DNA of 64,000 nucleotides, taken from assembly GCF_020165495.1 (NCBI RefSeq), contig NZ_JAIUIE010000004.1:186001-250000 (forward strand), in the 5' to 3' direction. The position numbers and the translations under genes are program-made. The notes below the pieces were generated by a model, which saw nothing but the letters and a program-made list of their open reading frames with translations, was not told the DNA's origin and did not search any database. This document shows positions 18,265 to 63,948 of the stretch, piece by piece (position 1 is the stretch's first letter; each line of letters opens with the position of its first letter). This stretch comes from Mesorhizobium sp. BR1-1-16 (GTDB lineage Bacteria; Pseudomonadota; Alphaproteobacteria; Rhizobiales; Kaistiaceae).

Positions 18265-18323
18265 CGTAGCTCTCCGCAGCTGGGCAATGCCCGCATCTCA
18301 GCGGAGCGGGCCAGTCGCGGCGT

Positions 18324-18350
18324 GGAACAATTGCTCGGACCGATTGTTCC
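18324..18350. promoter_or_regulatory. Palindromic bidirectional EcfG-type promoter
   Basis: GGAAC (18324-18328), 17 bases, GTTCC (18346-18350). The reverse complement has the same form, so both strands carry GGAAC-N17-GTT over the same 27 bases. The plus-strand copy drives the small membrane protein at 18377 and the minus-strand copy drives the PoxB-like gene starting at 18264. The bases next to the ends (AAT/ATT) extend the symmetry. Confidence 0.8.
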
Positions 18351-18376
18351 AGCAGCACGAAACAGGGGAGATGTTC

Positions 18377-18514: not shown

Positions 18515-18570
18515 GCCGCGTTCGTCGAAGGCCTGTCTCACTTCTTTGGTGCCGACCACGGAGAGCAATC

Positions 18571-45100: not shown

Positions 45101-45271
45101 CGACTCAAGCTGATCTGGGCGGAAAAAGACGGGCCGCCCGTTGTTGCGCCCGACAGGAATGGTTTTGGCCTGTCGCTGGTCAAAGGCGAGATCGAGTACC
45201 GATTGCGAGGTACTGTCGAAACATTTTTTGATCCCGATGGTTTGAAGGTGCACATGTCCTTCGATATCTAG
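42179..45271 (+). CDS. CheB-CheR-PAS-HWE hybrid histidine kinase
   Basis: A 1030-residue multidomain signalling protein starting at TTG 42179. Residues 8-190: CheB methylesterase (GIGASAGG catalytic Ser, VTHLNPEHHS His, ILSGGDGDGTLG Asp). Residues 210-480: CheR methyltransferase (LINVTNFFRDPEAF, VPGCATGEEVYSLAILM near 317). Residues about 515-640: PAS-like. About 650-735: a long coiled coil rich in SNEEL repeats. About 740-850: PAS. From 854: HWE/HisKA_2 kinase (ELNHRVKNMLAVV phosphoacceptor His, then VIHELATNAAKYGALS ATP-binding box). CheB-CheR kinases of this design occur in rhizobia and are thought to act in stress signalling rather than motility. No chemoreceptor genes adjoin. It pairs with the receiver at 45287. 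Confidence 0.9.
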   Translation: MTDSDNRFPVVGIGASAGGIPAMEAFFRGLPVNPGAAFVIVTHLNPEHHSVLHEVIGRYTELPVVVAEDATVVELDHVYVMPPNAILTMAEGILQLRRPNSPGRERKPIDIFLSSLAADQSEYAVAVILSGGDGDGTLGAKAIKERGGLTLAQASDASGPRNPDMPESAISSGMIDLAVPAEEMGEKIVAFVRSFHALAVLTETKNKSEEAALQSARGQIYSILNSQTGHDFSGYKTKTFMRRVRRRMQVLQLGSLEDYVDLLGQDASEVANLFRDLLINVTNFFRDPEAFALLEKEVVPKLFEGRSSNDAVRIWVPGCATGEEVYSLAILMREHLDRTSNPPRVQIFATDIDEHALGIARSGRYPEQLTESLSPERRQRFFHRDGSSFTVTSELRELCVFSPHSVIRDPPFSRMDMVSCRNLLIYFGPDIQNRVMPTFHYALKPGGYLFLGTSESIGHHTELFTTIEKKNRIFQARERLSSPPQLSALLAEPRLAAHEDASGLKRRHSASPLRQVVEMQVLERFSPAHVVVNGEGEVVYYSSRTGRFLEAAQGAPSRQILSMAKKGLRLDLRAALRQAVETKATAIRKNVVLDGETEQSQQIDLTVEPLSDRSMQEPLFLVLFEPSGQPVMQAASEGRAEMPDGSDDLERELRDTRERLQSTIEEYETALEELKSSNEELVSVNEEAQSTNEELEASKEEMQSLNEELNTINTELISKVEDLDRANSDLKNLFESTKIATVFLDRNLVIRNFTPAASTFFHLRSSDVGRPLTDLSSNLDYPDLRDAIETVFRTGEMLEHQLPRDSNGKHFLIRLIPYRDDVGRTGGVVVTLVDVSTLAAAEEHQQVLISELNHRVKNMLAVVISIANHTLESAPSPEEFSNSLIGRLHAMARAYGLLSRTNWKTASVKELVEQEAAAFDAARFQAVGPDLRLEPQYGLPIGMVIHELATNAAKYGALSKNGGTVDIRWELDGPRLKLIWAEKDGPPVVAPDRNGFGLSLVKGEIEYRLRGTVETFFDPDGLKVHMSFDI

Positions 45272-45286
45272 TGCAGGGAGAGGCCA

Positions 45287-45640
45287 ATGACGGCGAATGT
45301 ACTGATCGTCGAGGACGAATGGTTGATCGCGGAAGATCATGCTGCAGCATTGCGCGGCGCTGATCATCGTGTGGTCGGACCCTGTTCAACCGTACAGGCT
45401 GCCTTGATCGCAATCGATGAAAATCTCGTCGATATGGCACTGCTGGACATCGAGCTTCGCGACGAGAAGAGCTTTGCGGTCGCCGAACGGCTGGAGGAGC
45501 GGAACATACCGTTCGCTTTCCTCAGCGGTCACGGCACTCAGGAGTTGCCGCCAGGCATGCGTGACCGAGACGTGCTGTCGAAGCCGCTCGAGCGAGCGAC
45601 CCTGATCGCGGCTGTCGAGCGGATGTCATCGCGCGGCTGA
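45287..45640 (+). CDS. Single-domain response regulator
   Basis: A 117-residue receiver domain, VLIVEDEWLIAEDHAAALRG start (acidic pocket E-D), phosphoacceptor Asp in MALLDIELRDEKSF, FLSGHG switch and a VLSKPLERA Lys. It lacks an output domain. The start follows CAGGGAGAGGCCA and lies 15 bases after the CheB-CheR-HWE kinase, so it is the obvious cognate receiver. It resembles the receivers that HWE kinases phosphorylate, and in sequence the receiver part of the protein at 41258. Confidence 0.88.
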   Translation: MTANVLIVEDEWLIAEDHAAALRGADHRVVGPCSTVQAALIAIDENLVDMALLDIELRDEKSFAVAERLEERNIPFAFLSGHGTQELPPGMRDRDVLSKPLERATLIAAVERMSSRG

Positions 45641-45753
45641 TGGCTGCAAAGCCAGCGAGAGATCGGATCGCTGTAGGCGGAGGAAGCGGTGGGAGCCGAT
45701 TGCCAGACTGCCGCAGCCCCGAGGTCCGCTCGGAATAAAGCAGGAGCAGAAAT

Positions 45754-46737
45754 TTGGCCAAGCGCGACATCATAGCGATCGGCGGTTCGCTGGGTGCAAT
45801 CGACGCCGCGAAGACACTTCTCGGCGGTCTGCCCGCGGACTTCCCCGCAGCCGTTCTCCTCGTCGTTCACATCGGCTCGCGAGGAGCCAATCGCCTACCT
45901 GAAATCCTCGGAAGCGCATCGCGACTGCCTGTCAGCACTGCGATCGATGGGCAGATCCTGGAGCGTGGGCATGTCTATGTTGCGCCTGCCGGTCATCACT
46001 TGCTTGTCATGGACGACACCATAAGATTCGGCCGCGGCCCCCGTGAAAACCTCGCGCGTCCCGCCGCCGACGCCCTTCTGAGATCGGTTGCGGTTTCGTT
46101 CGGACCGAGGGCCATCGGGGTTATCCTGAGCGGACTGCTGAACGATGGGGCCGCCGGGTTGTCGGCGATCGCACAGTGCGGCGGCGCAACAGCCGTACAG
46201 AACCCCTCCGACTCCCGGGCGTCGGACATGCCGCTGGGTGCCTTGGCCGCCGTCGATGTCGATTACCGCGGAACATCCGCCGAGCTTGCCGAGGTGCTGG
46301 TCGAACTCGCAGGGCAAGACGTCGAACCAGCCTTCGAGGTGCCCCCCGAACTGGAATTGGAAGTCCGCATTGCCCTTGGTCGGCGCTCGGATTCTTCCAC
46401 CACCTCGGAGATCGGCGATGTCGCCCCGATCTCCTGTCCCTCTTGCGGCGGCGTCATGTCTCAGATGCGCACCGGTCCACCTCTCCGCTTCCGCTGCCAG
46501 GTGGGCCATGCGTTCACCGCCGAGGTGCTGGCCGAAGAGCAGGAGGATAGCGTCGACGAGGCCATCCGCGTCGCCATGCGCATCATCGAGGAACGCGTCG
46601 TGCTCCTGGACAAAATGGCAGCCGACGCGTCCCGGGCCGGACGCCGCTTCAGCGCCGAGGATCTCGGCGATCGCACGGACGAGTTGCGGGCCAGAGCGGC
46701 AACCCTGAGGAAAGCGGCGATCAGCATCGCCGATTAA
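45754..46737 (+). CDS. CheB-type methylesterase with C-terminal zinc ribbon
   Basis: A 327-residue protein from TTG 45754 (CAGGAGCAGAAAT upstream). The N-terminal 190 residues are a CheB catalytic domain without receiver: AIGGSLGAIDAAKTLLGGLP (Ser), VVHIGSRGANRLPEIL (His) and GVILSGLLNDGAAGLSAIAQ (Asp). From about 225 there is a zinc-ribbon-like part, ISCPSCGGVMSQMRTGPPLR then FRCQVGHAFTAEVLAEEQED, and a helical tail. CheB proteins with this ribbon are frequent in alphaproteobacteria near CheB-CheR kinases; their substrates are unknown. It is the third signalling gene in a row on this strand. Confidence 0.87.
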   Translation: MAKRDIIAIGGSLGAIDAAKTLLGGLPADFPAAVLLVVHIGSRGANRLPEILGSASRLPVSTAIDGQILERGHVYVAPAGHHLLVMDDTIRFGRGPRENLARPAADALLRSVAVSFGPRAIGVILSGLLNDGAAGLSAIAQCGGATAVQNPSDSRASDMPLGALAAVDVDYRGTSAELAEVLVELAGQDVEPAFEVPPELELEVRIALGRRSDSSTTSEIGDVAPISCPSCGGVMSQMRTGPPLRFRCQVGHAFTAEVLAEEQEDSVDEAIRVAMRIIEERVVLLDKMAADASRAGRRFSAEDLGDRTDELRARAATLRKAAISIAD

Positions 46738-47035: not shown

Positions 47036-47875
47036 ATGTACTATACTGATAAGAAGCTTCAGTTTCCCGTTCGAGTGGAAAAGCCGAACGCGGTCTTTGC
47101 CCGCGCCCTCCAGCAGGCCATCGGCGGCGTCGAGGGAGAAATCCGGGTTGCTCTCCAGTACTTCTTCCAGGCCTGGGGCGCTCGGGGTCCGACCAAATAT
47201 CGCGACATGCTGTTGAGCACGGCGACCGAAGAAATCGGACATATTGAGATGCTCGCCACCGCCGTGGCGCTCAACCTCGAGAATGCACCGCTGTCTGTGC
47301 AGGAGGATGTCGCCCAGGATACCGTCGCCGGATCCGTCCTCAACGGCATGGACTTCCGGCATCTCCTGTCGACGGGTCTGGCCGCCCTTCCGAGCGATGC
47401 CAATGGCGTGCCGTTCGACGCCTCCCATGTCTATGCCAGCGGAAACCTGGCCGCAGACATGATCGCCAATGTCACGGCGGAGGGTAGTGGCCGCGTCCTG
47501 GCGGTTCGGCTCCACAACATGACCGACGACCCTGGTATGAAGGATATGCTCTCGTTCCTCATCGCGCGCGACACGATGCACCAGCAGCAGTGGCTGGCGG
47601 CCATAGAAGACATGGGTGGACTCGCCGCGTCGCTTCCGGTCCCGAACTCGTTTCCGCAGACTGAAGAGCAGGCAGACTTCAGCTACGCGTTCATCAATAC
47701 CTTTGTGGATGGCGTGCCGCCCGCCGAAGGACGCTGGACAACCGGCGAGTCGCTTGATGGGAAGGGCTCCTTCCGCCTGGCCCAGGGTCGCCCGCTCGGC
47801 GATGAGCCTCGCCTTGCCCCGCCCCGCAAGAATAGCGGCGCTCAGAACGAGCAGATCGCCGGCAGCATTCTCTGA
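47036..47875 (+). CDS. Manganese (non-heme) catalase
   Basis: A 279-residue di-manganese catalase that breaks hydrogen peroxide into water and oxygen. It has the ferritin-like fold with the metal residues of helix 1 (GGVEGEIRVALQYFFQAWGA, Glu), helix 2 (STATEEIGHIEMLATAVALN, E-x-x-H), and later helices (AVRLHNMTDDPGMKDMLSF, then LIARDTMHQQQWLAAIEDMG, with E/H). The C-terminal 60 residues include the usual tail with FPQTEEQADFSYAFINTF and RLAQGRPLGDEPRLAP. The ATG at 47036 is after CACGGAGCATCGC. It is under an EcfG-type promoter with a long leader, fitting the role of KatN-type enzymes in stationary-phase and desiccation survival. Confidence 0.92.
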   Translation: MYYTDKKLQFPVRVEKPNAVFARALQQAIGGVEGEIRVALQYFFQAWGARGPTKYRDMLLSTATEEIGHIEMLATAVALNLENAPLSVQEDVAQDTVAGSVLNGMDFRHLLSTGLAALPSDANGVPFDASHVYASGNLAADMIANVTAEGSGRVLAVRLHNMTDDPGMKDMLSFLIARDTMHQQQWLAAIEDMGGLAASLPVPNSFPQTEEQADFSYAFINTFVDGVPPAEGRWTTGESLDGKGSFRLAQGRPLGDEPRLAPPRKNSGAQNEQIAGSIL

Positions 47876-49412: not shown

Positions 49413-50255
49413 CTAGTCTCGCTGGCCGAATGTAGCTGGGTCCGAACCGGTTCGGCCCTCCTCGCCTTTGTCGAGACTGGCGATGAGAGCCATTTCGTCG
49501 CTGGTAAGCTCGAAATCGAAGATCTCGAAATTGGAACGGATGCGATCGGGAGTCGCCGACTTTGGGATGGCGATGATTCCCTGCTGGATGTGCCAGCGGA
49601 GGATGATCTGAGCTGGCGATTTTTCCAGCCTTTGGGCCAATAATGCGATGTCAGGATTGTCGAGCACGGCTCCACTTCCCAACGGGCTGTAGGCTTCGAT
49701 CTTGATTCCGTGTGTGCGATGGAAATCCCGAACGCGTCGCTGCTGAAATTCAGGGTGAAGTTCGATCTGGTTGACGGAGGGCATGACCCCCGTCTCGTTT
49801 TTCAGCCGCTCAATATGCTCGGGCAGGAAATTGGACACGCCGATCGCCCGAACGCGGCCCTCGTCCCGCAACCGGATGAACGCATTCCAGGTCGCCACAT
49901 AGTTGTCCTGCATCGGCAGCGGCCAGTGGATGAGAAAGAGATCGAGATAGTCGGTTTGTAGCTTGCCAAGGCTTTCGTCGAATGCGCGGAGAGCCTCGTC
50001 GTAACCCTGCCGGGAATTATCGAGCTTCGTGGTCAGAAATATCTCCGCGCGAGGAACGTCCGAGGCCTGAATGGTCCGACCGACGCCCGCTTCATTGCCA
50101 TAGCCCTCGGCGGTATCGATCAGCCTGTATCCAGTAGAGATTGCTGAAAGGACGGGTTCTTCGACCGCATCATCTTTCACTTGCCAGACGCCGAGGCCGA
50201 GTTGCGGCATCAAGACACCTTCAGCAAGTTCCAGGGTGGGAACGGAAGAAGCCAT
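49413..50255 (-). CDS. Aldo/keto reductase
   Basis: A 280-residue NADPH-dependent reductase of the AKR5 (2,5-diketo-gluconate reductase-like) type. It contains the catalytic tetrad residues Asp (YRLIDTAEGYGNEAGVGRTI: D and Y), Lys in FLTTKLDNSRQGYDEAL and His in LDLFLIHWPLPM, plus VRAIGVSNFLPEHIERLK, NQIELHPEFQQRRVRDFHRT and IIAIPKSATPDRIRSNFEIF (coenzyme binding). Such enzymes detoxify aldehydes from lipid peroxidation and methylglyoxal. The ATG at 50255 lies 57 bases from an exact EcfG-type -10, and the gene heads a three-gene operon. Confidence 0.9.
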   Translation of the reverse strand: MASSVPTLELAEGVLMPQLGLGVWQVKDDAVEEPVLSAISTGYRLIDTAEGYGNEAGVGRTIQASDVPRAEIFLTTKLDNSRQGYDEALRAFDESLGKLQTDYLDLFLIHWPLPMQDNYVATWNAFIRLRDEGRVRAIGVSNFLPEHIERLKNETGVMPSVNQIELHPEFQQRRVRDFHRTHGIKIEAYSPLGSGAVLDNPDIALLAQRLEKSPAQIILRWHIQQGIIAIPKSATPDRIRSNFEIFDFELTSDEMALIASLDKGEEGRTGSDPATFGQRD

Positions 50256-52838: not shown

Positions 52839-54014
52839 TTACGGCTTGAGGACGACCTTGATGCAGCTGTCGCGCTTATCGCGGAACAGGTCGTACATCT
52901 CCGGGCCTTCGTCCAGGCCGGCCGTGTGGGTGATGACGAAGGAAGGGTCGATCTCTCCTTCCTCGATGCGGCGGGTCAGATCATCCGTCCAGCGCTTCAC
53001 ATGCGTCTGGCCCATGCGGAAGGTCAGGCCCTTGTTCATTGCGGCGCCCAGCGGGATCTTGTCGACGAGGCCGGTATAGACGCCGGGGACCGAGACGGTT
53101 CCGGCAGGACGGCAGACATAGATGATCTCGCGCAGCACATGGGGCCGGTCATTCTCCATCATCAGCATCTGCATGCCACGGTCGTAGATCGTGTCAGGCA
53201 ACGAAAGCGCGACATGGCTCTCGGTGCCCACAGCGTCGATGCACTTTTCGGGACCCCTGCCGCCCGTCAACTCGTTCAGCCGCTCGATGACGCTCTCCTG
53301 GTCGCGGTCGATCGTGATCGCGCCGGCCGCTTCCGCCATGCTGAGACGCTCGGGCAGGCGATCGATGGCGATCACCTGCTTGGCGCCGAGCAGGATGGCG
53401 CTGCGGATCGCCATCTGGCCCACTGGCCCGCAGCCCCAGACGGCCACGGTGTCGGACGGCTCGATGTCGCACTGGACCGCGGCCTGCCAGCCGGTTGGCA
53501 GGATATCGCTGAGGAACAGCGCCTGTTCGTCCGAGAGGCTGTTGGGCACCTTGATATGCGTCGAATCCGCAAAGGGGACGCGGAGATACTCCGCCTGACC
53601 GCCGGGGTAGCCGCCCGTCAAGTGGGAATAGCCAAAGAGACCGGCAGTTGTGTGTCCGAAAACTTTATCGGCCAGGTCCTTGCGACGATTAGTGCGCTCG
53701 CAGACCGAGAAGTTGCCGCGCCGGCACTGGTCGCATTCCCCACAGGTAATGGTGAAGGGTATGACGATCCGGTCGCCCTTCTTGAGGCTGCCATTGATGC
53801 CGCTGCCGACTTCGACGACCTCGCCCATCGTCTCATGGCCCATGATATCGCCGGGCAGCATGGCCGGAACCAGATTGTGGAAGAGGTGAAGATCGGAGCC
53901 GCAGATGGCGCAGCTCGTGACCTTGATGATCGCGTCACGCGGATCCTGGATTGTCGGATCGGTGACGCTGTCGCAGCGGATATCCTCCTTGCCGTGCCAG
54001 ACGAGCGCTTTCAC
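52839..54014 (-). CDS. Zinc-dependent alcohol dehydrogenase (formaldehyde-dehydrogenase-like)
   Basis: A 391-residue MDR enzyme of the glutathione-independent formaldehyde/alcohol dehydrogenase group. It has the catalytic zinc Cys in [20 protein letters not shown] and [18 protein letters not shown], and a structural zinc loop [20 protein letters not shown] with four Cys. The Rossmann part is [21 protein letters not shown]-terminal [19 protein letters not shown]. All zinc ligands are present, unlike in the truncated paralog at 3927. It is likely to oxidise an alcohol or an aldehyde adduct with NAD. The ATG at 54014 is 76 bases from an exact EcfG-type -10. It heads an operon with the membrane protein gene. 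Confidence 0.9.
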
Positions 54015-54502: not shown

Positions 54503-55048
54503 TCAGTCGGCGAGCGCGTACAGGTAGGCAGCCATGTCCCGAGCCTCCTGGTCAGTCGCCCCGGTATTCGGCATGGCCGTATCCGGCACCATGTCGCGGG
54601 ATCGCCGAACCCACTCTGCAAGGTTGGACGGGTTGTTCACAATCGCTCCGCCGATGAAGGCACGGTCGGCGAGGCCCTGGAGCGGCGGCCCGACCGTACC
54701 CGCGGCTCCGGGCACTCCCGCAATCGAGTGGCAACCGGCACAGCCATAGCGGATCATCACTTCGGGCGCGCGGCGTGCATCGCCCCCGGCCAGTCCGTTC
54801 GCCCAAACGAGCCGAGCATGCTTTTGACTGGCGACATAGAACGTCGCCGCACATGCAAGCGCGATAGCGACGGCCAATGCGGGGGCAACCCACCTATCGC
54901 CGCGGTCGGCGGCCGACGGCATGGAAGTCTCACGGCCGGATTCGACGGATATGACGCGAGCCCAAGAACGGCTCATCAGGCAGCCGACGGCAATCGCCAC
55001 AAACCCGGCGAGCAGGACTGCGTGACGTCTAGCGGGTAGGCAGGGCAT
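54503..55048 (-). CDS. Membrane-anchored cytochrome c
   Basis: A 181-residue monoheme cytochrome c. The heme-binding motif is CAGCH in VMIRYGCAGCHSIAGVPGAA, with the axial Met probably in DTAMPNTGATDQEARDMAAY. Two hydrophobic N-terminal spans (AVLLAGFVAIAVGCLM, ALAVAIALACAATFYVA) anchor it to the membrane with the heme domain outside. The gene is last of the nine-gene operon and its start overlaps the end of the CtaG gene by 20 bases. It probably passes electrons between the dehydrogenase and the oxidase. The start codon is uncertain (ATG 55048 chosen). Confidence 0.82.
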   Translation of the reverse strand: MPCLPARRHAVLLAGFVAIAVGCLMSRSWARVISVESGRETSMPSAADRGDRWVAPALAVAIALACAATFYVASQKHARLVWANGLAGGDARRAPEVMIRYGCAGCHSIAGVPGAAGTVGPPLQGLADRAFIGGAIVNNPSNLAEWVRRSRDMVPDTAMPNTGATDQEARDMAAYLYALAD

Positions 55049-55970
55049 CGGCGTGATACAGAGCACTTTTGCCGCTTTCGACGATCCAAAGCGCCGCGAG
55101 GGCGAGCGCGGCACCCGCATAGATCACGCCCGCAGGCACCCACATGATCAGACCAGCCAGTTGCTGGTCCTCGAGCGCTGTCAGGCCCCAGGAAGCAGCT
55201 TCCCGGGATTGCTCTCCGAACCAAAGCTGCGGCGTCAGAAACAACAGGACGCCGAGGAGGCCGGTATGAAGCGAGGTTGCGAACAGATGAACGATCGATG
55301 ATCCGCTGCGCCGCGAAGCGCGGCCAAGGAGAGCCCACCAGAAGATCAGCCCTGTCGATAGAAAGGTGAAATGCTGCAGCCAGTGCAGCCATTCCGTTAC
55401 GAGGGCGGCGCGAAAAAGGAAAGGCACATGCCAAAGCCAGATCGCGAGCCCATGCAGCAGGGTGGCGGGCAGCGGATCCGTCAAGCCGCTTCGGCCCAGG
55501 CCGCGTCCCATGCCGTGCAGCAAGCCGCCGATCGGCTTGCGGTACGATTTGGGCAAGCCCCACAGGAACAGGGGGAGCGGTCGCGCCAATACCAGTAGCG
55601 GCGCGGCAACGACCATGACGAGTTCATGCTCGATCATATGCGCAGCGAAGATGCCCCGGCTGGCCTCATGGATGGGGGACAGGAGCGCCAGCGCCAGCAC
55701 CAGCCAGCCGGCGATGAAGGCGCACAGTTGCAACCGCATGACAGCGCGGCCGACTCCGGCCCGGCTCCACAGACGGGTGACACCGATCCCGTACAGCACT
55801 GCCGCCCCGGCGAGCGGCAGGGTGATCGTCCAGGCGAGTGTCCACCCGCCCACGGTTCCTCCGCCAAAGCAGCGCGCGCCGAACTGAACCGCGTCCAAGA
55901 GTGCAGCCCGATCAGCCGCCGAAGCCTGCGGCGTAAGCAGACCCAGGTTGTCAAGCGCGCGGCTCGTCAT
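55029..55970 (-). CDS. ctaG: CtaG-type cytochrome c oxidase assembly protein
   Basis: A 313-residue polytopic membrane protein of the caa3_CtaG family, needed for building the CuB centre of caa3-type oxidases. Seven to nine spans can be drawn: from WTLAWTITLPLAGAAVLYGI, AFIAGWLVLALALLSPIHEA, IEHELVMVVAAPLLVLARPL, LLHGLAIWLWHVPFLFRAAL to LAGLIMWVPAGVIYAGAALA. Conserved HMIEHE, WHVP and LHTGLLGVLL His residues probably bind copper. This is not the Cox11 type of CtaG. It overlaps genes on both sides, the four-base ATGA with the small membrane protein upstream. Confidence 0.87.
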   Translation of the reverse strand: MTSRALDNLGLLTPQASAADRAALLDAVQFGARCFGGGTVGGWTLAWTITLPLAGAAVLYGIGVTRLWSRAGVGRAVMRLQLCAFIAGWLVLALALLSPIHEASRGIFAAHMIEHELVMVVAAPLLVLARPLPLFLWGLPKSYRKPIGGLLHGMGRGLGRSGLTDPLPATLLHGLAIWLWHVPFLFRAALVTEWLHWLQHFTFLSTGLIFWWALLGRASRRSGSSIVHLFATSLHTGLLGVLLFLTPQLWFGEQSREAASWGLTALEDQQLAGLIMWVPAGVIYAGAALALAALWIVESGKSALYHADALPTR

Positions 55971-56317
55971 CGCTCACACCCCTCGAACATGAAGCTCGCC
56001 ATGCCCTGCATCGCCAGGACCAGCGCGAAAAGGGCGGCGGTGGCGATGCCGAGCGCCGCCACGAAGGCGCATCGACGCCCGGCCGCCGGCGTATCCCAGC
56101 CGTGGCTGGCCGCGGCCCAGGCGCGATAGGACAGCAGGCAGCCGGCGAGGGCCACGAGAATGCCCAGCGCCGAGAGCCAGGGGACGATCCTGATCATGTT
56201 GGCGCATTGCCAGGGAACGATCACATAGCTGGCCTGAAAGCTGATCGCCCACGCCGACGGACCGGCGATGAGACCGGCCGATGGCAATCCCTTTCGGAGG
56301 CTGATGACCACCGCCAT
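55967..56317 (-). CDS. Three-span membrane protein of the oxidase operon
   Basis: A 116-residue membrane protein with hydrophobic spans near AWAISFQASYVIVPWQCANM, IVPWLSALGILVALAGCLLS and AFVAALGIATAALFALVLAM. It is in the place where many caa3-type operons carry a small subunit IV-like or unknown gene, and I recognise no specific family. It begins 1 base after the subunit III stop (TGA-A-ATG) and overlaps the CtaG start, so it is translated with the oxidase genes. It could be a small structural subunit or an assembly helper. Confidence 0.7.
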   Translation of the reverse strand: MAVVISLRKGLPSAGLIAGPSAWAISFQASYVIVPWQCANMIRIVPWLSALGILVALAGCLLSYRAWAAASHGWDTPAAGRRCAFVAALGIATAALFALVLAMQGMASFMFEGCER

Positions 56318-56318
56318 T

Positions 56319-56918
56319 TCAGATCCTCGGAAACCAATAGATGACCAGATAAAGGACGACCCAGGTCCCGACGACGAAATCCCAGTAGAAGGCATTGTCG
56401 CTGACATCGCTGAAGCGCTTGCCGCTCCGCCCGTGCCGCGTGAACATCAGGGCGGCGAGTACCAGCGTATCGACCAGGTCCGTAAGGAGATGCGTCGTGT
56501 GGAGGCCGAGCAGCAGCCAGACGATCGAGCCGTACGCATTCGTATCCCAGTTGACGTTGAGGGCGCCGAGCTCGAACCAGCGCACGACGAGAGGCAACGC
56601 TCCGAGGATCGACATCAAGAGGAGCCCGAACCGCACCCTTTTCAGATCCTTCGCTTTCGTCCAACGATCAAGCAGATGGTTCGGGAGGACGCTGACAACG
56701 AGCAAAGCGGTCACCAGGCTGCCCGGGATCAGATCGGGCGGCGGCGCCATCGGCCATTCGGGAGCAAGGAAAGCCAGATACAAATAGCTGGCGACACCTA
56801 GCGCGAAACCCATGCCCTCGATTGCCATGAACGCCATGGTTCCCCACCACATCGGGCTCGTGGCGCCGAAGCCGGATGTGGGCAGACCGGACACGTCGGC
56901 GACCGAATGTCGGGTCAT
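56319..56918 (-). CDS. ctaE: Cytochrome c oxidase subunit III
   Basis: A 199-residue membrane protein of the heme-copper oxidase subunit III family (bacterial short type, 180-210). Spans are visible at TMAFMAIEGMGFALGVASYL, LIPGSLVTALLVVSVLPNHL, FGLLLMSILGALPLVVRWFE, SIVWLLLGLHTTHLLTDLVD and FYWDFVVGTWVVLYLVIYWF. The conserved LGLHTTHLLTD helix and AFYWDFVVGTWVVLY end are hallmark parts; E in FMAIEGMGFALG is the conserved lipid-site Glu. Its ATG overlaps the stop of subunit I by four bases. Confidence 0.88.
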   Translation of the reverse strand: MTRHSVADVSGLPTSGFGATSPMWWGTMAFMAIEGMGFALGVASYLYLAFLAPEWPMAPPPDLIPGSLVTALLVVSVLPNHLLDRWTKAKDLKRVRFGLLLMSILGALPLVVRWFELGALNVNWDTNAYGSIVWLLLGLHTTHLLTDLVDTLVLAALMFTRHGRSGKRFSDVSDNAFYWDFVVGTWVVLYLVIYWFPRI

Positions 56919-58834
56919 TCCTCGTCCTCCGGGTTGCCCTTGGGCCAGAACCAGGCGATCAGCGGAATCGCGGCCAGCAGACCGCCCCAGACAACGGCCG
57001 AGGGCGTGAAGATGGAGCCGACGAAGGCGGCGGTGGTGGCGATTGCGGCCAGCAGCGGCCATATCGAATTGTCGACCGAGGACTCGCGGAGTTCCGGTGT
57101 CGCCTCCGCGAGGCTGCCCGAAAGCAATTCGCGCGCATCGACCCGCAAACCCGAGACCACCGGGAGGCTATCGCGATCGTTCCACAGCGGTTCCCTGTGC
57201 GAGGCGTAGGGAATGCGCAGGAAATTATAGGGCGGCGGCGGCGACGGTGCTGCCCATTCGAGCGTGCCAGCGTTCCAAGGGTTGGGGCCAGCGACGATCC
57301 CATGCCTGAGGCTCCGGACGACATTCCAGCCCAGCACCGCGAAACTTGCCGCAAACACAACCGACATCAAGCTGATGAAGAGGTTGACCTCGCCCCACCC
57401 GCTGGCGGCGGGGTAAGTATAGACACGACGTGGCATCCCCTCGAGACCAAGGAGATGCATCGGAAAGAACGCGGCGTTGAAGCCAATGACGGCGAGCCAA
57501 AAGTTCCACCGCCCCAGACGCTCGTCCAACATCCGTCCGCTGATCTTGGGGAACCAGTAATAGATGGCGCTGAGGAGCGGAAAGACGGCCCCGCCGATCA
57601 GCACATAGTGAAAATGGGCGACGACGAAATAGGTGTCGTGCACCTGGAGATCGAGCGGCACCGACGCGACCATGACGCCGGTCAGGCCGCCGATGACGAA
57701 GGTGAAGATAAAGCCAAGCACGAACAGCAGCGGCGTCTTCAGGATCGGCCGCCCAAGCCAGAGCGTCGCGATCCAGCAGAAGATTTGGATGCCGCTGGGG
57801 ATGGCGATCAGCATGCTGGAGGCGGTGAAGAAGCTCTCGCCGAGTTGCGGCAGCCCGGTCGCGAACATGTGGTGAACCCAGAGCCCAAACGACAGGAAGC
57901 CGATTGCGATCAGCGCCAACACCAGCGCTTGATAGCCGAAGATCGGGCGCTGGCAAAAGGTGGGTACGATCGCCGAGACCATCCCTGTCGCCGGAATGAA
58001 GATGATGTAGACCTCCGGGTGGCCGAAGAACCAGAACAGGTGCTGCCACAGGAGGGGGTCTCCGCCCTCGGCCGGATTGAAGAACTGCGTCCCGACCAGC
58101 CGGTCCAGGATCAGCATCGTGCTGGAGATCATCACAGCCGGCATCGCGAACATGATCGCGAAAGAGGTGACCAGCATCGCCCAGACAAAGAGCGGGATCC
58201 GGTCCAGCGACATGCCCGGAGCACGCTGCTTGAAGATGGTGGCGATCAGCGAGACGGCGACGGCGAGGGCCGACACCTCGGTGAACGTGACCATCTGCGC
58301 CCAGAAATCCGACCGCTTGCCGAAGGAAAACTCGGGGCCGGCGAGCGGGACATAGGAGAACCAGCCGTTCTCGGCGCCCGTGTTGAAAGCAAACGCGATC
58401 CAGATCATCGCGCCGCCGAACAGATAGACCCAGTAGCTGAAGGCGTTCAGCCGGGGAAATGCGATGTTGCGGGTCCCGACCATCAACGGCACGAGATAGA
58501 CCGCGACGGCTTCCATCACTGGCACGGCGAAAAGGAACATCATCGTCGTTCCGTGCATGCTGAACAACTGGTTGTAGAGGTCGGGGCCCATCAGGCTGTT
58601 TTCGGGCACCGATAGCTGCAGCCGCATCGCCAGCGCTGCCAGGCCGGCGAGGGCGAGGAACACAAACGCCGTAACGATGTAGCGGCGGCCGACCATCTTG
58701 TGGTCGACGGTGGCGAGCCAGCCATAGAAGCCGCGCGGCGTTTCCCACGTCCTTGCCAGAATGCCATCGAGCGTCGGATCGTCGAGATCGGTGTCGCGGA
58801 GGTCCTTCGTCATGTCGGCAGGATGCGATGTCAT
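56915..58834 (-). CDS. ctaD: Heme-copper oxidase subunit I (caa3-like) with altered proton channels
   Basis: A 639-residue catalytic subunit with 12 or more spans and an extra C-terminal part typical of caa3-type subunit I. Heme/copper ligands are intact: H94 (heme a), H272 with cross-linking Y276 and E274 in GHPEVY, H321-H322 (CuB), H407 and H409. Key proton-channel residues are not: position N123 (GTRNIAFPRLN) is where A-type enzymes have the D-channel Asp (D132 in Rhodobacter), the nearby N121 is V112, and Q350 (PSGIQIF) replaces the K-channel Lys (K362). These assignments come from ungapped motif spacing. The enzyme should still reduce oxygen, but pumping may be changed. It overlaps both neighbours by four bases. 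Confidence 0.92.
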   Translation of the reverse strand: MTSHPADMTKDLRDTDLDDPTLDGILARTWETPRGFYGWLATVDHKMVGRRYIVTAFVFLALAGLAALAMRLQLSVPENSLMGPDLYNQLFSMHGTTMMFLFAVPVMEAVAVYLVPLMVGTRNIAFPRLNAFSYWVYLFGGAMIWIAFAFNTGAENGWFSYVPLAGPEFSFGKRSDFWAQMVTFTEVSALAVAVSLIATIFKQRAPGMSLDRIPLFVWAMLVTSFAIMFAMPAVMISSTMLILDRLVGTQFFNPAEGGDPLLWQHLFWFFGHPEVYIIFIPATGMVSAIVPTFCQRPIFGYQALVLALIAIGFLSFGLWVHHMFATGLPQLGESFFTASSMLIAIPSGIQIFCWIATLWLGRPILKTPLLFVLGFIFTFVIGGLTGVMVASVPLDLQVHDTYFVVAHFHYVLIGGAVFPLLSAIYYWFPKISGRMLDERLGRWNFWLAVIGFNAAFFPMHLLGLEGMPRRVYTYPAASGWGEVNLFISLMSVVFAASFAVLGWNVVRSLRHGIVAGPNPWNAGTLEWAAPSPPPPYNFLRIPYASHREPLWNDRDSLPVVSGLRVDARELLSGSLAEATPELRESSVDNSIWPLLAAIATTAAFVGSIFTPSAVVWGGLLAAIPLIAWFWPKGNPEDEE

Positions 58835-59862
58835 TGCAGCCCCGCCACATAGGCAACGACGGCGTTGAGTTCGTCCGGATCGAGAGCGACGCGCGGCATG
58901 TTGGTGCCCGGCTTGATGGCCTGCGGATCAGCGATCCAGGCGGCGAGGCTTCCACGGCTGAGCGGCAGGGTGCCCGCGGCAACCGTCTTGCGACTGGCGA
59001 CATGCGTCAGGTCCGGACCGACCTTTCCGCCAGCCGGCGTGCCCCGCACCGTGTGGCAGATGGAGCATCCCCGCGAAAGAAAGACGCGCTGTCCCGCTGC
59101 CGCCTCCTCCCCGGTCGGAGACGCCGCGGTCGCGACTTGGCGGCTCCGCCATGCTTCGAAATCCGGGATTTCGTCCGCCACGACGAGAAAGGACATATGC
59201 GCGTGCTGGTAGCCGCAGAACTCGGCGCATTGGCCACGATAGACGCCGGGTCGCTCGGCCTTCAAATAGATCTCGTTCTGGTGACCGGGAATGAGGTCTT
59301 CCTTGCCCGCGAGGCTCGGAACCCAAAAGCTGTGAATCACATCATTGGACTCGAGCTTTACCTTTACCGGCTGCCCGACCGGGATGTGAATTTCATTCGC
59401 CGTGGTGAAGGTCCGATTGGCCTGACTGTCTTCGTAGCGGACCTGCCACCACCACTGGTCGCCCGTCACAAGCAATGTCAGCGTCTCCCGTCCTCGCAGG
59501 CTGGCCAGCGTTCGTCCGGTCATGAAGCTCCAGGTGGTAAGCCCGATCAGGATCGCAGCCGTCAATCCGATCGCCGTCGATACGGCAATGGTCGCGAACG
59601 CCTCGGGTCGGGATCGGCGCTCAAGAGGTGCTGCCAACCGTTCGGCGAGGCTGCGGCGCCGACGCAAGGCGCCGATCATGGCGAAAATGACCAGAAGCCA
59701 GATGCCGGCCGAAAGGGCCGTGAAGCCGTAGAACTGCCGAAGCACAGCCTCCGCACTCTGACCGTGCGCATCCAGAGCGGATTGCCAGACGTTGCAGGCG
59801 GTGAGCCCGAGCGGCGCACTTACCACCAGAACAAAACGGACGTTCCCTGCTCGGCCGCTCAT
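58831..59862 (-). CDS. ctaC: Cytochrome c oxidase subunit II with fused cytochrome c (caa3-type)
   Basis: A 343-residue lipoprotein-type subunit II. An N-terminal lipobox (LTAC near residue 23) is followed by two spans (FYGFTALSAGIWLLVIFAMI and VSTAIGLTAAILIGLTTWSF), the CuA cupredoxin domain (HIPVGQPVKVKLESNDVIHS, then the CuA loop GQCAEFCGYQHAHMSF with Cys-x3-Cys, His and Met), and a C-terminal cytochrome c domain with CSICH (residues about 265-335) and a Met in GTNMPRV. It takes electrons from the cytochromes c of the operon and hands them to subunit I. It overlaps subunit I and the cytochrome c gene by four bases each. Confidence 0.92.
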   Translation of the reverse strand: MSGRAGNVRFVLVVSAPLGLTACNVWQSALDAHGQSAEAVLRQFYGFTALSAGIWLLVIFAMIGALRRRRSLAERLAAPLERRSRPEAFATIAVSTAIGLTAAILIGLTTWSFMTGRTLASLRGRETLTLLVTGDQWWWQVRYEDSQANRTFTTANEIHIPVGQPVKVKLESNDVIHSFWVPSLAGKEDLIPGHQNEIYLKAERPGVYRGQCAEFCGYQHAHMSFLVVADEIPDFEAWRSRQVATAASPTGEEAAAGQRVFLSRGCSICHTVRGTPAGGKVGPDLTHVASRKTVAAGTLPLSRGSLAAWIADPQAIKPGTNMPRVALDPDELNAVVAYVAGLQ

Positions 59863-60428
59863 TGCGTGCCTCTCGATGCCGGCAAGGGCTGGCCTCCCGT
59901 GGTCGGCGGGCTGGGCGGACGCCGGTTTTCAGCAGGGAAAGGGTTCAGGTCATCGTTGCGCTGCGGCGCCACGTTCTTCGACAGGTTTCCGCCCATGGAG
60001 CGGACAAAGGCGGCGATCTCCCAGATCTGGTCGTCCGGGATCTTGCCGCGGAAAGAAGGCATGCCGTTCGGCCTCCCCTCCCTGATGGTCGCGACGATGT
60101 TCTCGATGGTGCCGCCATAGATCCACTTGTCGTCCATCAAGGGAGGACCGGAGTCGCCACCGCCCATGGCGTGACATCCATTGCAGTTGAACCAAGTGAA
60201 CAGTCGCTTGCCCTGAGCGACGTGATACGCATTGCCCTCGAAGGTGGCGGCCCGGCCGGACGTGGCAACCTGAGGCGGTGTGGCCCCGGGGGAAAGGCTC
60301 GACAGGGCAACCTCGTCGCGATCGCCGCTCTCTGCGCGCTCGGATTTGAATTCACGTTTCTCGCGCTCGCATCCGGATGTCAGCAGCAGCGCCGCGAGCA
60401 GGACTGTCGACGCTGCGCTCCTCATCAT
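59859..60428 (-). CDS. Cytochrome c lipoprotein of the dehydrogenase/oxidase operon
   Basis: A 189-residue exported monoheme cytochrome c. LLAALLLTSGCEREK gives a lipobox, so it is probably a membrane-anchored lipoprotein. The heme motif is CNGCH in FTWFNCNGCHAMGGGDSGPP, with a Met in GRPNGMPSFRGKIPD as second axial ligand, then the family helix IWEIAAFVRSMGG. The C-terminal 35 residues are Pro-rich. In PQQ alcohol systems such a cytochrome (XoxG/ExaB-like) accepts electrons from the dehydrogenase. It overlaps both neighbours by four bases. A cytochrome cL-like assignment would need biochemical proof. Confidence 0.85.
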   Translation of the reverse strand: MMRSAASTVLLAALLLTSGCEREKREFKSERAESGDRDEVALSSLSPGATPPQVATSGRAATFEGNAYHVAQGKRLFTWFNCNGCHAMGGGDSGPPLMDDKWIYGGTIENIVATIREGRPNGMPSFRGKIPDDQIWEIAAFVRSMGGNLSKNVAPQRNDDLNPFPAENRRPPSPPTTGGQPLPASRGTQ

Positions 60429-61291
60429 TGTCCAGCCTCGCTGCTAACTGCCCCTCTCGCCGCAAGAGTCGGCGTAGTCCCCGACAGACGCTCGAAGCGC
60501 GGCACGCCGTAGGCGGCGAGCACGGCGTCAATGTCGGAGCGTCGGCGCCGCAAGGCGTCGTCCACCTCGCGCCGCAAGGTCGCATCGTCCTTGCGGACGC
60601 CCATCGAAATGTCGAACACCATCGGCAGCATCGGCCCGTCGATTTCGGGCGCGACCTTGGCGAGAGCGAGAGGCACCGCGCTCGACCGTGCGAAATAGCC
60701 CGCCGTCGGGCCCCAGACGAGGGCGACGTTGACTTCACCGTTCGCGACTGCATCGACGATGCGCCGGCCCGGCTCTGGATCAGCAAAATTCCCGTAGATC
60801 GGATAGCCGCGCAGATTACCGACGATCCCCCGCCTGGCCAGCGCATGGGCAGGCGGCGTATTGGCTCCGTCGTCGCCGACCAGTTGGACGCCCACCTTCA
60901 ACCATCGCAACCGGGGGTCATCAAGCGAGGCGATATCGAGATGATCGGCAGCCCGGGTGACGAAAACATAGCCCGAGCGGTAATAGGGCCGTGTCGTGCG
61001 CAGCATTTCCAGGTTCGAGGCAATGCCCATCACAAGATCGCAGGTGCCGGCATTCAGCGTGTTGCGGAGAAAACCGCGGCGCTGCGCCCACCAGCGATAG
61101 GTGACGCTCGCCTTGAGCTCGTCGGCAACGATCCGGGCGATCCGGTTCTCGAAACCCTGCTGCTTCTCATTCGAGAAAGGCAGGTCGTTCGGATCTCCGC
61201 AGAAGCGCAATTCGCGGCCGTCAGCGGCACCATGGGCACCGGCCATGAAGGCGAGGATGACGGCTATCCTCCTAAGGGAGGCGGAACACAT
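60425..61291 (-). CDS. Quinoprotein-associated periplasmic binding protein (XoxJ/MoxJ-like)
   Basis: A 288-residue periplasmic protein with a signal peptide (RRIAVILAFMAGAHGAA). The mature part has the SBP-3-like fold: LRFCGDPNDLPFSNEKQQGF then ENRIARIVADELKASVTYRW, the hallmark RRGFLRNTLNAGTCDLVMGI and RTTRPYYRSGYVFVTR, VGVQLVGDDGANTPPAHALA. Such XoxJ/MoxJ-type proteins always stand beside PQQ methanol or alcohol dehydrogenases and are thought to help activate them, not to feed an ABC transporter. I use ATG 61291 (GGGAGG at eight bases), which overlaps the end of the dehydrogenase gene by 20 bases. Confidence 0.88.
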   Translation of the reverse strand: MCSASLRRIAVILAFMAGAHGAADGRELRFCGDPNDLPFSNEKQQGFENRIARIVADELKASVTYRWWAQRRGFLRNTLNAGTCDLVMGIASNLEMLRTTRPYYRSGYVFVTRAADHLDIASLDDPRLRWLKVGVQLVGDDGANTPPAHALARRGIVGNLRGYPIYGNFADPEPGRRIVDAVANGEVNVALVWGPTAGYFARSSAVPLALAKVAPEIDGPMLPMVFDISMGVRKDDATLRREVDDALRRRRSDIDAVLAAYGVPRFERLSGTTPTLAARGAVSSEAGQ

Positions 61292-63065
61292 AGAGCGTCC
61301 CTCCCGCGGTCGTATAATCGGGCAGATTGCGGGTCGCGTTGACGAATCCCTTCGCCGCCGTGGCGTCGCGTCGGTCAAGCTGTCCCGATACGATCGCCCC
61401 CGCCCATCCGCCGACGCCCGAGAGGATAGCGACATACTGATGGCCATCGGGACCGCGATAGGTCGTGGGCTGGCCGATGATGCCAGAACCGGTCCTGAAC
61501 TGCCAAAGCAGCCTTCCCGTTCGCGCGTCCAGCGCTTTGAACCAGCCCTCCATCGTGCCGTAGAAGACGACATCGCCTGCGGTCGCGAGCGTGCTGCTCC
61601 AGACCGGAAATGGTTCCTTCAGGGACCATGCCGGCTTCTGCGCGGCGATGTCCCAGGCGGTATATTCGCCCATATTGCCGCCGGGGCCGGCATGCATGGT
61701 GACATTGGCGCCGATATAGGGCGTTCCCGCAATATAGTTCGGCTCGACCCCTTCGTAATCCATGCACAGATTGTTGTGCGGTATGTAGATGTATCCGGTT
61801 CGAACCGAGAAGGCCGACGGATTCCAGTCCTTAGCGCCGGGGGCCGTCGGGCAAATGTCCCGCACGACCTTGTTCATGACGGGCGCCTTGTCCGGATTCT
61901 CGATCAGCCGGCCTGTCTTCATATCGACGCCGCGCGAGGCATTGAGATAGGCGAAGGCTTTGGCGGAGAGCACTTCTCCCGTCGTCCGATCAAGCACGTA
62001 CAGGTAGCCGTTGCGCTCCGGCCGAACGAGCACCTTGCGCGGCTTGCCCTGCCACGGCATGTCGAGGAGGATTTGCTCGTTAATGCCGTCATGATCATAG
62101 AGGTCGTGCGGGCTCCACTGGTAGAACCACCGCGCGGCGCCTGTATCGGGATCGCGCGCGAAGATGCCCGCCGTCCATTTGTTGTCGCCGGGACGCGCGT
62201 CGGGGTTCCAGGGACCGGGATTTCCTGTGCCGTAATAGATCAGGTTGAGATCGGGGTCATAGGAGAGCCACCCCCAGACATTGCCGCCGCCTTGCTGCCA
62301 GGCATCTGGCGGCCAGGTGGTCACGCCGAGGTCCTTCCCCCTGTCCATGTCATAGAAGGGCTTGAAGTCCGGCCCGATCAGGACATCCGCGTCCGGGCCG
62401 GTGCTGAATGCTTTCCAGACGCTCTTCCCCGTTGCCGCATCGAGGGCCACGATCCAGCCGCGCACACCGTATTCGCCACCTGAATTGCCGACAAATACCT
62501 TGCCGCGTGCGAACAGCGGCGCCATCGTCATCGTCTCGCCGATATTGATGTCGCCGAGCTTCACATTCCAGATTTCCCGGCCGGTCGCCGCATCGACCGC
62601 CACCGTGTGGGAATCGAGCGTCGTGTAATAGATCCGGCCATCGCCATAGGTCGGGCCGCGATTGACCACATCGCAACAGGCAACCCCCTGCGCGGCAGCC
62701 TCCGGCTTGGGTTCATATTTCCACTTGAGCGGCGCGCCGGGCCTGGTGAGGTCCAGCGCATACAGAATGAGCGGATAGGGCGCGAGCACATACATCGTGC
62801 TCCCGACAACGATCGGCGCGGATTCGTGACCACGGACGACACCGGTCGAGAATGTGAAATCGACTCGGAGATTGGCAACGTTGGCGGTGTTGATCTCGTC
62901 GAGGCCGCTGTACCGGGTGCTCGCATAGTTCTTCGCCGGCATCACCCACTGGCCGTCCTCCTGTGGGGAAGCCGACGGTGGCGGCACGATCGACTGGCCG
63001 AGGCACAAGCTCGTCATTGCAACAAAAGCGATGGTGCAAAGCCCAACCAGGCTTCGATGCTTCAT
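61272..63065 (-). CDS. PQQ-dependent alcohol dehydrogenase, predicted lanthanide type
   Basis: A 597-residue periplasmic quinoprotein of the methanol/ethanol dehydrogenase family; eight-bladed propeller with tryptophan-docking motifs. The signal peptide is HRSLVGLCTIAFVAMTSLCLGQ. The vicinal CysCys ring-forming pair is at 130-131 (GVACCDVV), the metal-binding Glu198 in GGEYG and Asn282 in GTGNPGPWNPD, and the catalytic Asp324 in LYDHDGIN is followed two residues later by Asp326. That second Asp is the extra metal ligand known from lanthanide-dependent XoxF/ExaF/PedH enzymes; calcium MxaF has Ala there. Substrate alcohol unknown. ATG 63065 follows GGGAG and lies 36 bases after an exact EcfG-type -10, heading the nine-gene operon. 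Confidence 0.92.
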   Translation of the reverse strand: MKHRSLVGLCTIAFVAMTSLCLGQSIVPPPSASPQEDGQWVMPAKNYASTRYSGLDEINTANVANLRVDFTFSTGVVRGHESAPIVVGSTMYVLAPYPLILYALDLTRPGAPLKWKYEPKPEAAAQGVACCDVVNRGPTYGDGRIYYTTLDSHTVAVDAATGREIWNVKLGDINIGETMTMAPLFARGKVFVGNSGGEYGVRGWIVALDAATGKSVWKAFSTGPDADVLIGPDFKPFYDMDRGKDLGVTTWPPDAWQQGGGNVWGWLSYDPDLNLIYYGTGNPGPWNPDARPGDNKWTAGIFARDPDTGAARWFYQWSPHDLYDHDGINEQILLDMPWQGKPRKVLVRPERNGYLYVLDRTTGEVLSAKAFAYLNASRGVDMKTGRLIENPDKAPVMNKVVRDICPTAPGAKDWNPSAFSVRTGYIYIPHNNLCMDYEGVEPNYIAGTPYIGANVTMHAGPGGNMGEYTAWDIAAQKPAWSLKEPFPVWSSTLATAGDVVFYGTMEGWFKALDARTGRLLWQFRTGSGIIGQPTTYRGPDGHQYVAILSGVGGWAGAIVSGQLDRRDATAAKGFVNATRNLPDYTTAGGTLYVFRLP

Positions 63066-63100
63066 CGACGCCAACTCCCGCATGGTACCATCAGACATCG

Positions 63101-63125
63101 AACGCCTCGGCGGGGATTCCGTTCC
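63101..63125 (-). promoter_or_regulatory. EcfG-type stress promoter of the PQQ/oxidase operon
   Basis: On the minus strand GGAAC (63125-63121), 17 bases, GTT (63103-63101), preceded by C and followed by CG. It stands 36 bases before the dehydrogenase ATG at 63065. It also supports that ATG, because the next upstream in-frame ATG (63083) and the frame start at 63098 would be at or before the expected transcription start. Confidence 0.8.
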
Positions 63126-63144: not shown

Positions 63145-63948
63145 CTAGAAATCGCGTCGCTTCCAGAAACCGCGGCCGGGGTTATAGCCCCAGGTCGCAA
63201 GGCCTTGAAAGACGATCAACGCACCGCTCACAACGGCCAGAGATGGCCAGTTCACTTGGCAATAAAGCGCGAAGCGGATCAGTTCGACGGCATGGCTGAA
63301 CGGGTTGGTGGCAGCGATCCATCCGAGCCAGGCATTGGCGTCGTCGAGCTTCCAGAGCGGATAAAGGGCAGTCGATGCAAAAAAGAGCGGAAAGATCACG
63401 AAGTTCATCACGCCAGCGAAATTCTCGAGCTGGCGGATCAGCGACGAGATCAACAAGCCCAAGGCGCCGAGCATCGTCCCGGCAAGGATGAGGGCCGGCA
63501 GCGCGGCGACATAGCCGAGCGCCGGCGGCCGCACATCCCAGAGGCGCGCGAGGAAGAGGAAGACGTAGACCACCGGCAGAACGACAACGACGCTCGCCAG
63601 GAGCCTTGCCAGAAGAACGAACCAGCGTGGCAATGGACTGGTAAGTAGCAGCCGCATGCTGCCCATCTCGCGGTCGTAGACCATCGACAGCGAACTTTGC
63701 ATGCCGTGAAAGAGGAGCATCATGCCCGCGAGGCCCGGCGCGATATAGGTCTCGTAAAGGATGTAGCTGCGATAGGGCGGCGTCGGCGAGAGACCGAGTA
63801 CTGCACGGAAGCCCGCCGCGAAAATGGCGAGCCAGACCAACGGGCGGATCAACGCCGAGACCAGGCGTCCGCGCTGGCGGAGCATGCGCAGCCCCTCCCG
63901 TCTCAAGATGCCCATGAAGGCGCGCGCACAATGAAACGGCGTCGTCAT
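63145..63948 (-). CDS. ABC-2-type transporter permease (PedC-like)
   Basis: A 267-residue integral membrane permease of the ABC-2 family. Six spans can be drawn: LVSALIRPLVWLAIFAAGFR, IAPGLAGMMLLFHGMQSSLS, LARLLASVVVVLPVVYVFLF, YVAALPALILAGTMLGALGL, FAGVMNFVIFPLFFASTALY and WPSLAVVSGALIVFQGLATW. The pattern fits the PedC permease found with PQQ alcohol dehydrogenase systems. It is separated from the dehydrogenase by 79 bases containing the stress promoter, so the transporter is a different transcription unit. Its start overlaps the end of an upstream frame (ATGA), most likely the ATPase. Confidence 0.83.
   Translation of the reverse strand: MTTPFHCARAFMGILRREGLRMLRQRGRLVSALIRPLVWLAIFAAGFRAVLGLSPTPPYRSYILYETYIAPGLAGMMLLFHGMQSSLSMVYDREMGSMRLLLTSPLPRWFVLLARLLASVVVVLPVVYVFLFLARLWDVRPPALGYVAALPALILAGTMLGALGLLISSLIRQLENFAGVMNFVIFPLFFASTALYPLWKLDDANAWLGWIAATNPFSHAVELIRFALYCQVNWPSLAVVSGALIVFQGLATWGYNPGRGFWKRRDF

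Follow-up and report, generated by a model that had tools for sequence, protein, structure and literature searches.

The window analysed here is a 64,000-nucleotide (nt) stretch of Mesorhizobium sp. BR1-1-16 (contig NZ_JAIUIE010000004.1, positions 186,001 to 250,000). It carries on its minus strand, from 63065 down to 54503, nine overlapping or abutting genes for a predicted lanthanide- and pyrroloquinoline quinone (PQQ)-dependent alcohol dehydrogenase, its partner proteins and a caa3-like haem-copper oxidase, preceded by an exact EcfG-type promoter motif. An earlier reading of the stretch, made from the letters alone and called here the original prediction, had proposed nine genes joined by overlaps of 4–20 bases or a 1-base gap and encoding together a dedicated chain from alcohol to oxygen. 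The run is present with the frames of all nine genes intact, and the gene families and junctions support such a chain. Its features are, in order of transcription:

63101..63125, minus strand: EcfG-type promoter motif, exact GGAAC-N16-CGTT, in the gap between pedC and xoxF, ending 35 nt before the ATG at 63065
61272..63065, minus strand: xoxF-type lanthanide/PQQ alcohol (methanol) dehydrogenase (TIGR03075, 630.8 bits), Asp324 catalytic and Asp326 for the lanthanide
60425..61291, minus strand: xoxJ/moxJ-like periplasmic binding protein (TIGR03871, 291.3 bits), start chosen from domain position and overlap
59859..60428, minus strand: c-type cytochrome with a single CNGCH haem site, CxxCH at residue 82 (PF13442/PF00034)
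58831..59862, minus strand: oxidase subunit II (cox2, CoxB) with CuA-type motif, fused cytochrome c (CSICH) and lipobox LTAC (TIGR02866, 160 bits; PF00116, PF00034)
56915..58834, minus strand: oxidase subunit I (cox1, CtaD), 639 amino acids (aa) (TIGR02891, 719 bits)
56319..56918, minus strand: oxidase subunit III (COX3; PF00510, 26.5 bits)
55967..56317, minus strand: small membrane protein encoded between cox3 and ctaG, in an open frame of 146 aa, with a product of 116 aa when started at the ATG at 56317
55029..55970, minus strand: caa3-type CtaG assembly factor (PF09678, Caa3_CtaG, 175.5 bits)
54503..55045, minus strand: second c-type cytochrome with one haem (CAGCH; PF00034, CxxCH), start likewise chosen

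Overlaps of 4 nt, as read from the sequence, join xoxJ to the cytochrome c gene, cytochrome c to cox2, cox2 to cox1, cox1 to cox3, and the small gene to ctaG, and a 1-nt gap separates cox3 from the small gene, whose product gave no match in a Pfam search. The overlap of xoxF and xoxJ is 20 nt provided that xoxJ starts with the ATG at 61291, and that of ctaG and the last cytochrome c gene is 17 nt provided that the latter starts at 55045. Both the cytochrome c domain fused to subunit II (PF00034) and the caa3 kind of CtaG (PF09678) are features of caa3 oxidases. The gene in front of cox2, formerly described as a cytochrome c lipoprotein, does encode a cytochrome c, presumed to be the electron acceptor of XoxF, but its lipoprotein status is unproven because the strict lipobox pattern was found in cox2 and not there.

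The nearest solved proteins to the dehydrogenase were methanol dehydrogenase 4mae (644 bits) and then 6oc5 (571 bits), which is named a lanthanide-dependent XoxF; the solved chains that we take to be of the calcium kind scored below both. Asp324 and, two residues on, Asp326 align with 4mae and were found in 93/93 related loci, as were a Glu and an Asn that are presumably further metal ligands of XoxF. By its sequence the dehydrogenase is thus an XoxF-type lanthanide enzyme, and on the basis of the aspartate pair and the nearest solved matches its metal is most likely a lanthanide and its substrates methanol and other short alcohols. An extra aspartate two residues past the catalytic one is described as the mark of lanthanide enzymes (PMC10875860; this and the other papers cited by PMC number are represented here by parts of their text). 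The genes beside xoxF, namely cox and ctaG, an XoxG-like cytochrome and xoxJ, give the layout of XoxF3 systems. In an XoxF tree without a labelled XoxF3 reference, loci of Acidobacteria and Gemmatimonadetes with the same kind of operon fell in the same tree, and the other XoxF-like proteins in 60 relatives searched were 41–50% identical.

The original prediction regarded a dedicated terminal oxidase in a PQQ dehydrogenase transcript as unusual. This rarity does not hold, because the layout is common both among relatives and in print. Gene order was scored in those 67 of the best 80 of 169 relatives that have at least 6.5 kb behind xoxF, a set whose counts lean to close relatives because only the best 80 were taken. 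The genes cox2-cox1-cox3 lay behind xoxF in 62/67 loci, and the order of the window, with the small gene not required, was found in 41/67. By title the cox carriers include Alpha-, Beta- and Gammaproteobacteria, Acidobacteria, Gemmatimonadetes, Verrucomicrobia, Planctomycetes and Myxococcota. Five loci were without cox genes behind xoxF (L063, L070, L071, L079, L087), although L079 carries them ahead of xoxF and L071 on the opposite strand. A sample extended to the family of genome G249 yielded no further locus. Published XoxF3 systems of soil Acidobacteria, Gemmatimonadetes and Verrucomicrobia share XoxF3, XoxJ, an XoxG-like cytochrome, CoxI/II/III, CtaG and CytC, and have, as does the run here, a protein of about 110–130 aa between CoxIII and CtaG (PMC10875860). 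Similarly, COX operon type a-II is an alphaproteobacterial oxidase cluster often accompanied by a PQQ dehydrogenase, as in the window (PMC4013037); it is defined by a COX1-COX4 fusion, which the 639-aa COX1 would fit, judged by length alone. The pairing of XoxF with its own oxidase is therefore already known in many bacteria. The run differs from the XoxF3 systems of PMC10875860, as far as these are described in the text at hand, in being alphaproteobacterial, in its EcfG-type motif, and in having PedA1A2BC-like and Ssu-like transporters directly in front. Here and in several relatives, however, the layout stands behind a general-stress promoter motif.

The single exact EcfG promoter claimed for the run was recovered as GGAAC-N16-CGTT at 63125-63101, within about 100 nt of the xoxF start. 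The genome contains NepR (PF18557); by their translations, frames beside it seem to encode an ecfG-like sigma factor and a PhyR-like regulator, the latter frame also being preceded by the exact GGAAC-N16-CGTT. The NGTT form agrees with the EcfG motif of Sphingomonas melonis Fr1, GGAAC-N17-20-GTT (PMC6599016).

For comparison, the 400 nt before xoxF residue 36 were searched for GGAAC-N16/17-NGTT in related loci, of which L082 and L085 had no upstream sequence; alphaproteobacterial status was taken from the record titles of named loci, and L062, a Proteobacteria metagenome-assembled genome (MAG), was counted among the others. The motif was present in 17/62 alphaproteobacterial loci (7 with CGTT), or 16/61 distinct ones as L067 and L115 are identical in this stretch, and in 0/30 other loci. 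Among 90 permuted motifs it scored best (mean 0.84, next best 8), and spacing was 16 in 11 loci and 17 in 6, with at most 3 loci at any other spacing from 8 to 29. Of the 48 alphaproteobacterial loci among the best 80 of 169, 12 carried it; windows drawn at random from these loci 2000 times averaged 1.48 and never exceeded 7. In 16 of the 17 carriers, L074 being the exception, the end of the motif is followed after 19–101 nt by an in-frame start codon that has a stretch resembling a ribosome-binding site. Carriers span eleven genera or lineages of Alphaproteobacteria and include the genome itself, Phyllobacterium (2/2), Microvirga (2/2), Azospirillum (4/4), Hyphomicrobium (1/1), three named MAGs and four other loci, one of these identical to a MAG.

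Non-carriers were all 24 Mesorhizobium and all four Methylobacterium loci, one locus each of Chelativorans, Labrys, Pseudaminobacter, Enterovirga, Nitratireductor, Phenylobacterium, Sphingomonas and Methylocella, and nine other loci. In the Labrys locus (L043) an exact site lies at -337 from the match start, outside the stretch tested, and was left uncounted. A displaced motif was sought in the 700 nt upstream in four Mesorhizobium loci (L022, L026, L030, L040); the two candidates, a weak GGAA form and another that lies on the opposite strand, were not convincing. The common gene order is thus standard in many operons that are without the motif, including the non-alphaproteobacterial ones, an outcome that the original prediction had named as counting against it. 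On a quick XoxF tree of 72 rows (22 near-duplicate or short rows left out; 16 motif rows) the motif label needed 10 changes, at least 4 of them forced by starred branches, and the motif has therefore been gained or lost repeatedly. In Hyphomicrobium facile (L087) it precedes a xoxF-xoxJ-cytochrome c run with no cox genes behind, and the stress link is therefore not bound to the oxidase.

Within the window GGAAC-N16-NGTT occurs 15 times, one near-palindromic place being counted on both strands, while shuffled sequence gave a mean of 2.25 and a maximum of 6, and any other spacing from 10 to 25 gave at most 3. In 9/15 cases a listed frame starts within 250 nt downstream; several of the 15 lie inside frames. 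By comparison and by this local enrichment it is supported that the EcfG-type promoter predicted before the chain is more than chance. Comparison between loci likewise supports the stress control originally claimed, a control that is experimentally unproven.

The original prediction let the run begin at xoxF, which proved too short, as seven further packed, same-strand genes of transporter type lead into xoxF across the window edge, itself 52 nt past the start of pedC:

63145..63948, minus strand: pedC, permease of a PedA1A2BC-like ATP-binding cassette (ABC) transporter (TIGR03861, 385.7 bits)
C24:249945-255225, beyond the window, minus strand: pedB, pedA2, pedA1 and an ssuBCA-like transporter (TIGR03864, TIGR03866, TIGR03863 and SsuABC-like matches)

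TIGR03863, TIGR03866 and TIGR03861 scored over their cut-offs and TIGR03864 just under (300 of 302.25 bits). The four genes are read as a putative PedA1A2BC set, in which PedC is named by NCBIfam and the matching of PedA1, PedA2 and PedB is ours. PedA1A2BC of Pseudomonas putida is likewise a four-part ABC system that carries lanthanide into the cell; it serves PedH there, while the similar genes here precede an XoxF-oxidase unit (PMC12997753). At 79 nt, the gap between pedC and xoxF exceeds every other gap among the 16 genes, the next longest being 15 nt, and it is in this gap that the EcfG-type motif sits. Microvirga rosea (L050) shares the order of all 16 genes, and its own pedC-xoxF gap carries an exact EcfG-type site; in a Microvirga MAG (L058) the four Ped-like genes are also present, together with the site in an AGTT form.

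The run had also been said to contain every step. It does hold the genes from alcohol oxidation to oxygen, but the phrase is too strong because lanthanide uptake is encoded further upstream and searches of the genome did not recover PQQ synthesis. In family searches of ten genomes, PqqC was found in six, with PqqE over its cut-off in the same six, all of them xoxF3 carriers (6/7 of the other xoxF3 genomes tested). PqqC was not found and PqqE was not over the cut-off in the genome itself (best PqqE match 41 bits, cut-off 381.35), in the xoxF3 carrier G231 and in two congeners, and PQQ would therefore probably come from outside the cell. As for origin, a search at E≤1e-100 returned xoxF in 0/13 other genomes of the genus, and at E≤1e-200 in 11/397 genomes of the order and 4/385 of the class, the genome itself included in each. 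Upstream of xoxF, at a distance of about 9 to 32 kb, there are genes for TrbI-like, TrbG, TrbF, TrbE, TrbB, TraG and relaxase-like proteins. With the cassette not found in 13 congeners and conjugation genes nearby, gain by conjugative transfer is its likeliest origin. These conjugation genes, at L103:13549-16564 and L132:2080-19168, are of the IncP type, and the relaxase is RlxS-like.

The same observations could be taken to mean that the dehydrogenase stays empty for want of PQQ and that the cassette is silent cargo, carried along recently and without selection in a conjugative region. This is quite improbable, given the nine intact frames with conserved residues and two further PQQ membrane dehydrogenases (TIGR03074) in the genome; 16 of 38 XoxF genomes are reported to be able to make PQQ, and others may import it (PMC10875860).

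The explanation that we favour, and hold to be fairly probable, is an XoxF3-type alcohol-to-oxygen chain under an internal sigma-EcfG promoter, running on scavenged PQQ and encoded by a cassette gained by transfer. The lanthanide- and PQQ-dependent periplasmic methanol/alcohol dehydrogenase, with XoxJ as maturation partner, would be paired with the small cytochrome c and a dedicated caa3-like oxidase (subunits II, I and III, CtaG, second cytochrome c). Electrons would pass from alcohol through PQQ and lanthanide to cytochrome c, then by way of subunit II, with its haem c and CuA, to subunit I and oxygen, bypassing quinone and the bc1 complex. In a cassette of 16 genes the nine would make up the second half; the first half would import lanthanide (PedA1A2BC-like) and an unknown solute (Ssu-like), and the internal promoter would let the general stress response turn on the enzyme genes separately from the transporters. 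The most likely purpose would be to supply stressed, non-growing cells with maintenance electrons from trace alcohols, with PQQ probably taken from neighbours.

Several results weigh against this explanation. Genome-wide, the exact motif is not enriched (65 occurrences, 57 for the reversed-pattern control), and the genome-wide count was consequently dropped as support in favour of the position-specific and comparative tests. The exact CGTT form gave a weaker upstream test (7/62 loci, 6 for the next of 360 permuted motifs), the loose motif is missing in 45/62 alphaproteobacterial loci, including all Mesorhizobium and Methylobacterium tested, and on the antisense strand 6/62 loci match the loose form and 1 the exact form. 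Transcripts that start at a promoter ahead of the transporter genes could also run on into the nine genes. The absence of PQQ synthesis rests on two family searches and is shared by xoxF3 genome G231, and the genome has 7 COX1 homologues, the operon's one included, so electrons from XoxF could also go elsewhere.

The missing enrichment and the 45 loci without the motif, together with genes packed throughout the 16-gene run, would suit an ordinary XoxF3 operon controlled by lanthanide or alcohol, transcribed as one unit from before the ssuA-like gene, with the EcfG motif a chance match or a minor extra. Such an operon seems unlikely to us, since eleven genera or lineages of Alphaproteobacteria carry the motif with fitting spacing and distance and none of the 30 other loci does, since it recurs in the same gap in Microvirga rosea, and since that gap is the longest of the run. 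Scans of the operon gave one sigma-70 consensus site against 1.5 expected, which is uninformative on internal promoters, the other outcome that the original prediction had named as counting against it, and terminators at or below chance.

No link of EcfG, PhyR or the general stress response to xoxF, lanthanide, PQQ or oxidase was met in the titles and abstract openings searched, a literature in which few subscription journals are covered, although the abstract of PMC9600857 (Methylocystis) includes the general stress response. The EcfG-dependent genes of Sphingomonas melonis Fr1 include carbon monoxide dehydrogenase subunits, i.e. another trace-fuel oxidiser, with motif scores under the direct-target cut-off, and the main text of that paper, in the part available, is without PQQ, cytochrome, methanol and oxidase (PMC6599016). 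XoxF3 systems had not been studied experimentally according to PMC10875860; a stress promoter would be a concrete reason for which their genes may seem silent in growth tests and suggests a condition under which to look for expression of XoxF3 genes.

Subunit I of the operon was compared with four solved aa3 oxidases, using the residue lists for A1-type haem-copper oxidases (PMC3084760). It reads PSGIQ for PTGIK and GTRN for GAPD, with Gln350 at the position of K-channel Lys354 and Asn123 at that of D-channel Asp124. Counts were made on 69 XoxF-linked rows including the window, with three unlinked Cox1 and five own-genome rows set apart; the seventh own COX1 homologue (L125) gave no alignment row. 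Many of the linked rows are near-identical Mesorhizobium proteins and are therefore not 69 independent cases. The K-channel position holds Gln in 66, Ala in 2 and Ile in 1 row, lysine in 0/69, and the D-channel position holds Asp in just 2/69; positions aligned with Asn113 and Asn199 are mostly changed as well. The active site appears intact by its motif GHPEVYI (Glu278 and Tyr280), with Glu in 70/72 and Tyr in 72/72 rows, and the five tested haem/CuB histidines are kept in 72/72, three of these rows being unlinked oxidases. Seven unlinked Cox1 proteins, four from the genome itself, all have both Asp and Lys, and another subunit I of the genome (L122, G000:C24:57659-58996) keeps the Asp with Gln at the K-channel lysine position. 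The change at the Asn131-aligned position was dropped as evidence, solved mycobacterial oxidases also having Ala there.

By the lists of PMC3084760 the linked oxidase departs from the A type at two channel residues and keeps others; it may pump protons by another route, pump less, or not pump at all. The text of PMC4013037 at hand makes no mention of 'proton pump', 'D channel', 'K channel' or 'lysine'. The loss of both entry residues and mostly of the two aligned Asn, and the manganese-catalase-like and aldo-keto-reductase-like genes in the neighbourhood, could indicate an electron sink: an oxidase conserving little energy or none, in a chain that burns off alcohol or oxygen under stress. We regard this as rather doubtful, since the active-site Tyr and Glu and the histidines are conserved, other proton routes are possible, and charge separation alone conserves energy. 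Natural, intact-looking haem-copper oxidases without the K-channel lysine and the D-channel aspartate would bear on how protons are taken up. Extending the explanation favoured above, one may tentatively suppose that several alphaproteobacterial lineages separately placed a mobile lanthanide chain under the stress sigma factor, and that the oxidase without both proton-entry residues is a different energy converter, serving stressed cells for maintenance or as a respiratory safety valve and depending on trace alcohols, rare earths and scavenged PQQ, a possibility to which we give a minor share of belief.

One more gene of the same strand follows the operon:

52839..54014, minus strand: zinc alcohol/formaldehyde dehydrogenase-like gene (TIGR02819, 173.6 of 636.95 bits) with its own GGAAC-N16-AGTT at 54115-54091

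It was considered as the formaldehyde step and rejected, the match being far under the FdhA cut-off. The window as a whole looks like a stress island. Some of its motifs (6129-54115) precede genes of stress type, namely those for a manganese-catalase-like protein (47036-47875), a DkgA-like protein (49413-50255), the zinc dehydrogenase and a response regulator (6996-7367). At 18324-18350, the sequence GGAACAATTGCTCGGACCGATTGTT forms an EcfG-type motif on both strands with an offset of 2 nt, between the divergent genes of a thiamine pyrophosphate (TPP) enzyme (16498-18264) and a metallo-beta-lactamase-fold protein (18322-19455). In the region 42179-46737 a single frame of 1030 aa combines CheB-like and CheR-like stretches with a histidine-kinase stretch and is followed by a separate CheB-like frame; the histidine-kinase stretch was closest to blue-light and similar kinases, all under cut-off.

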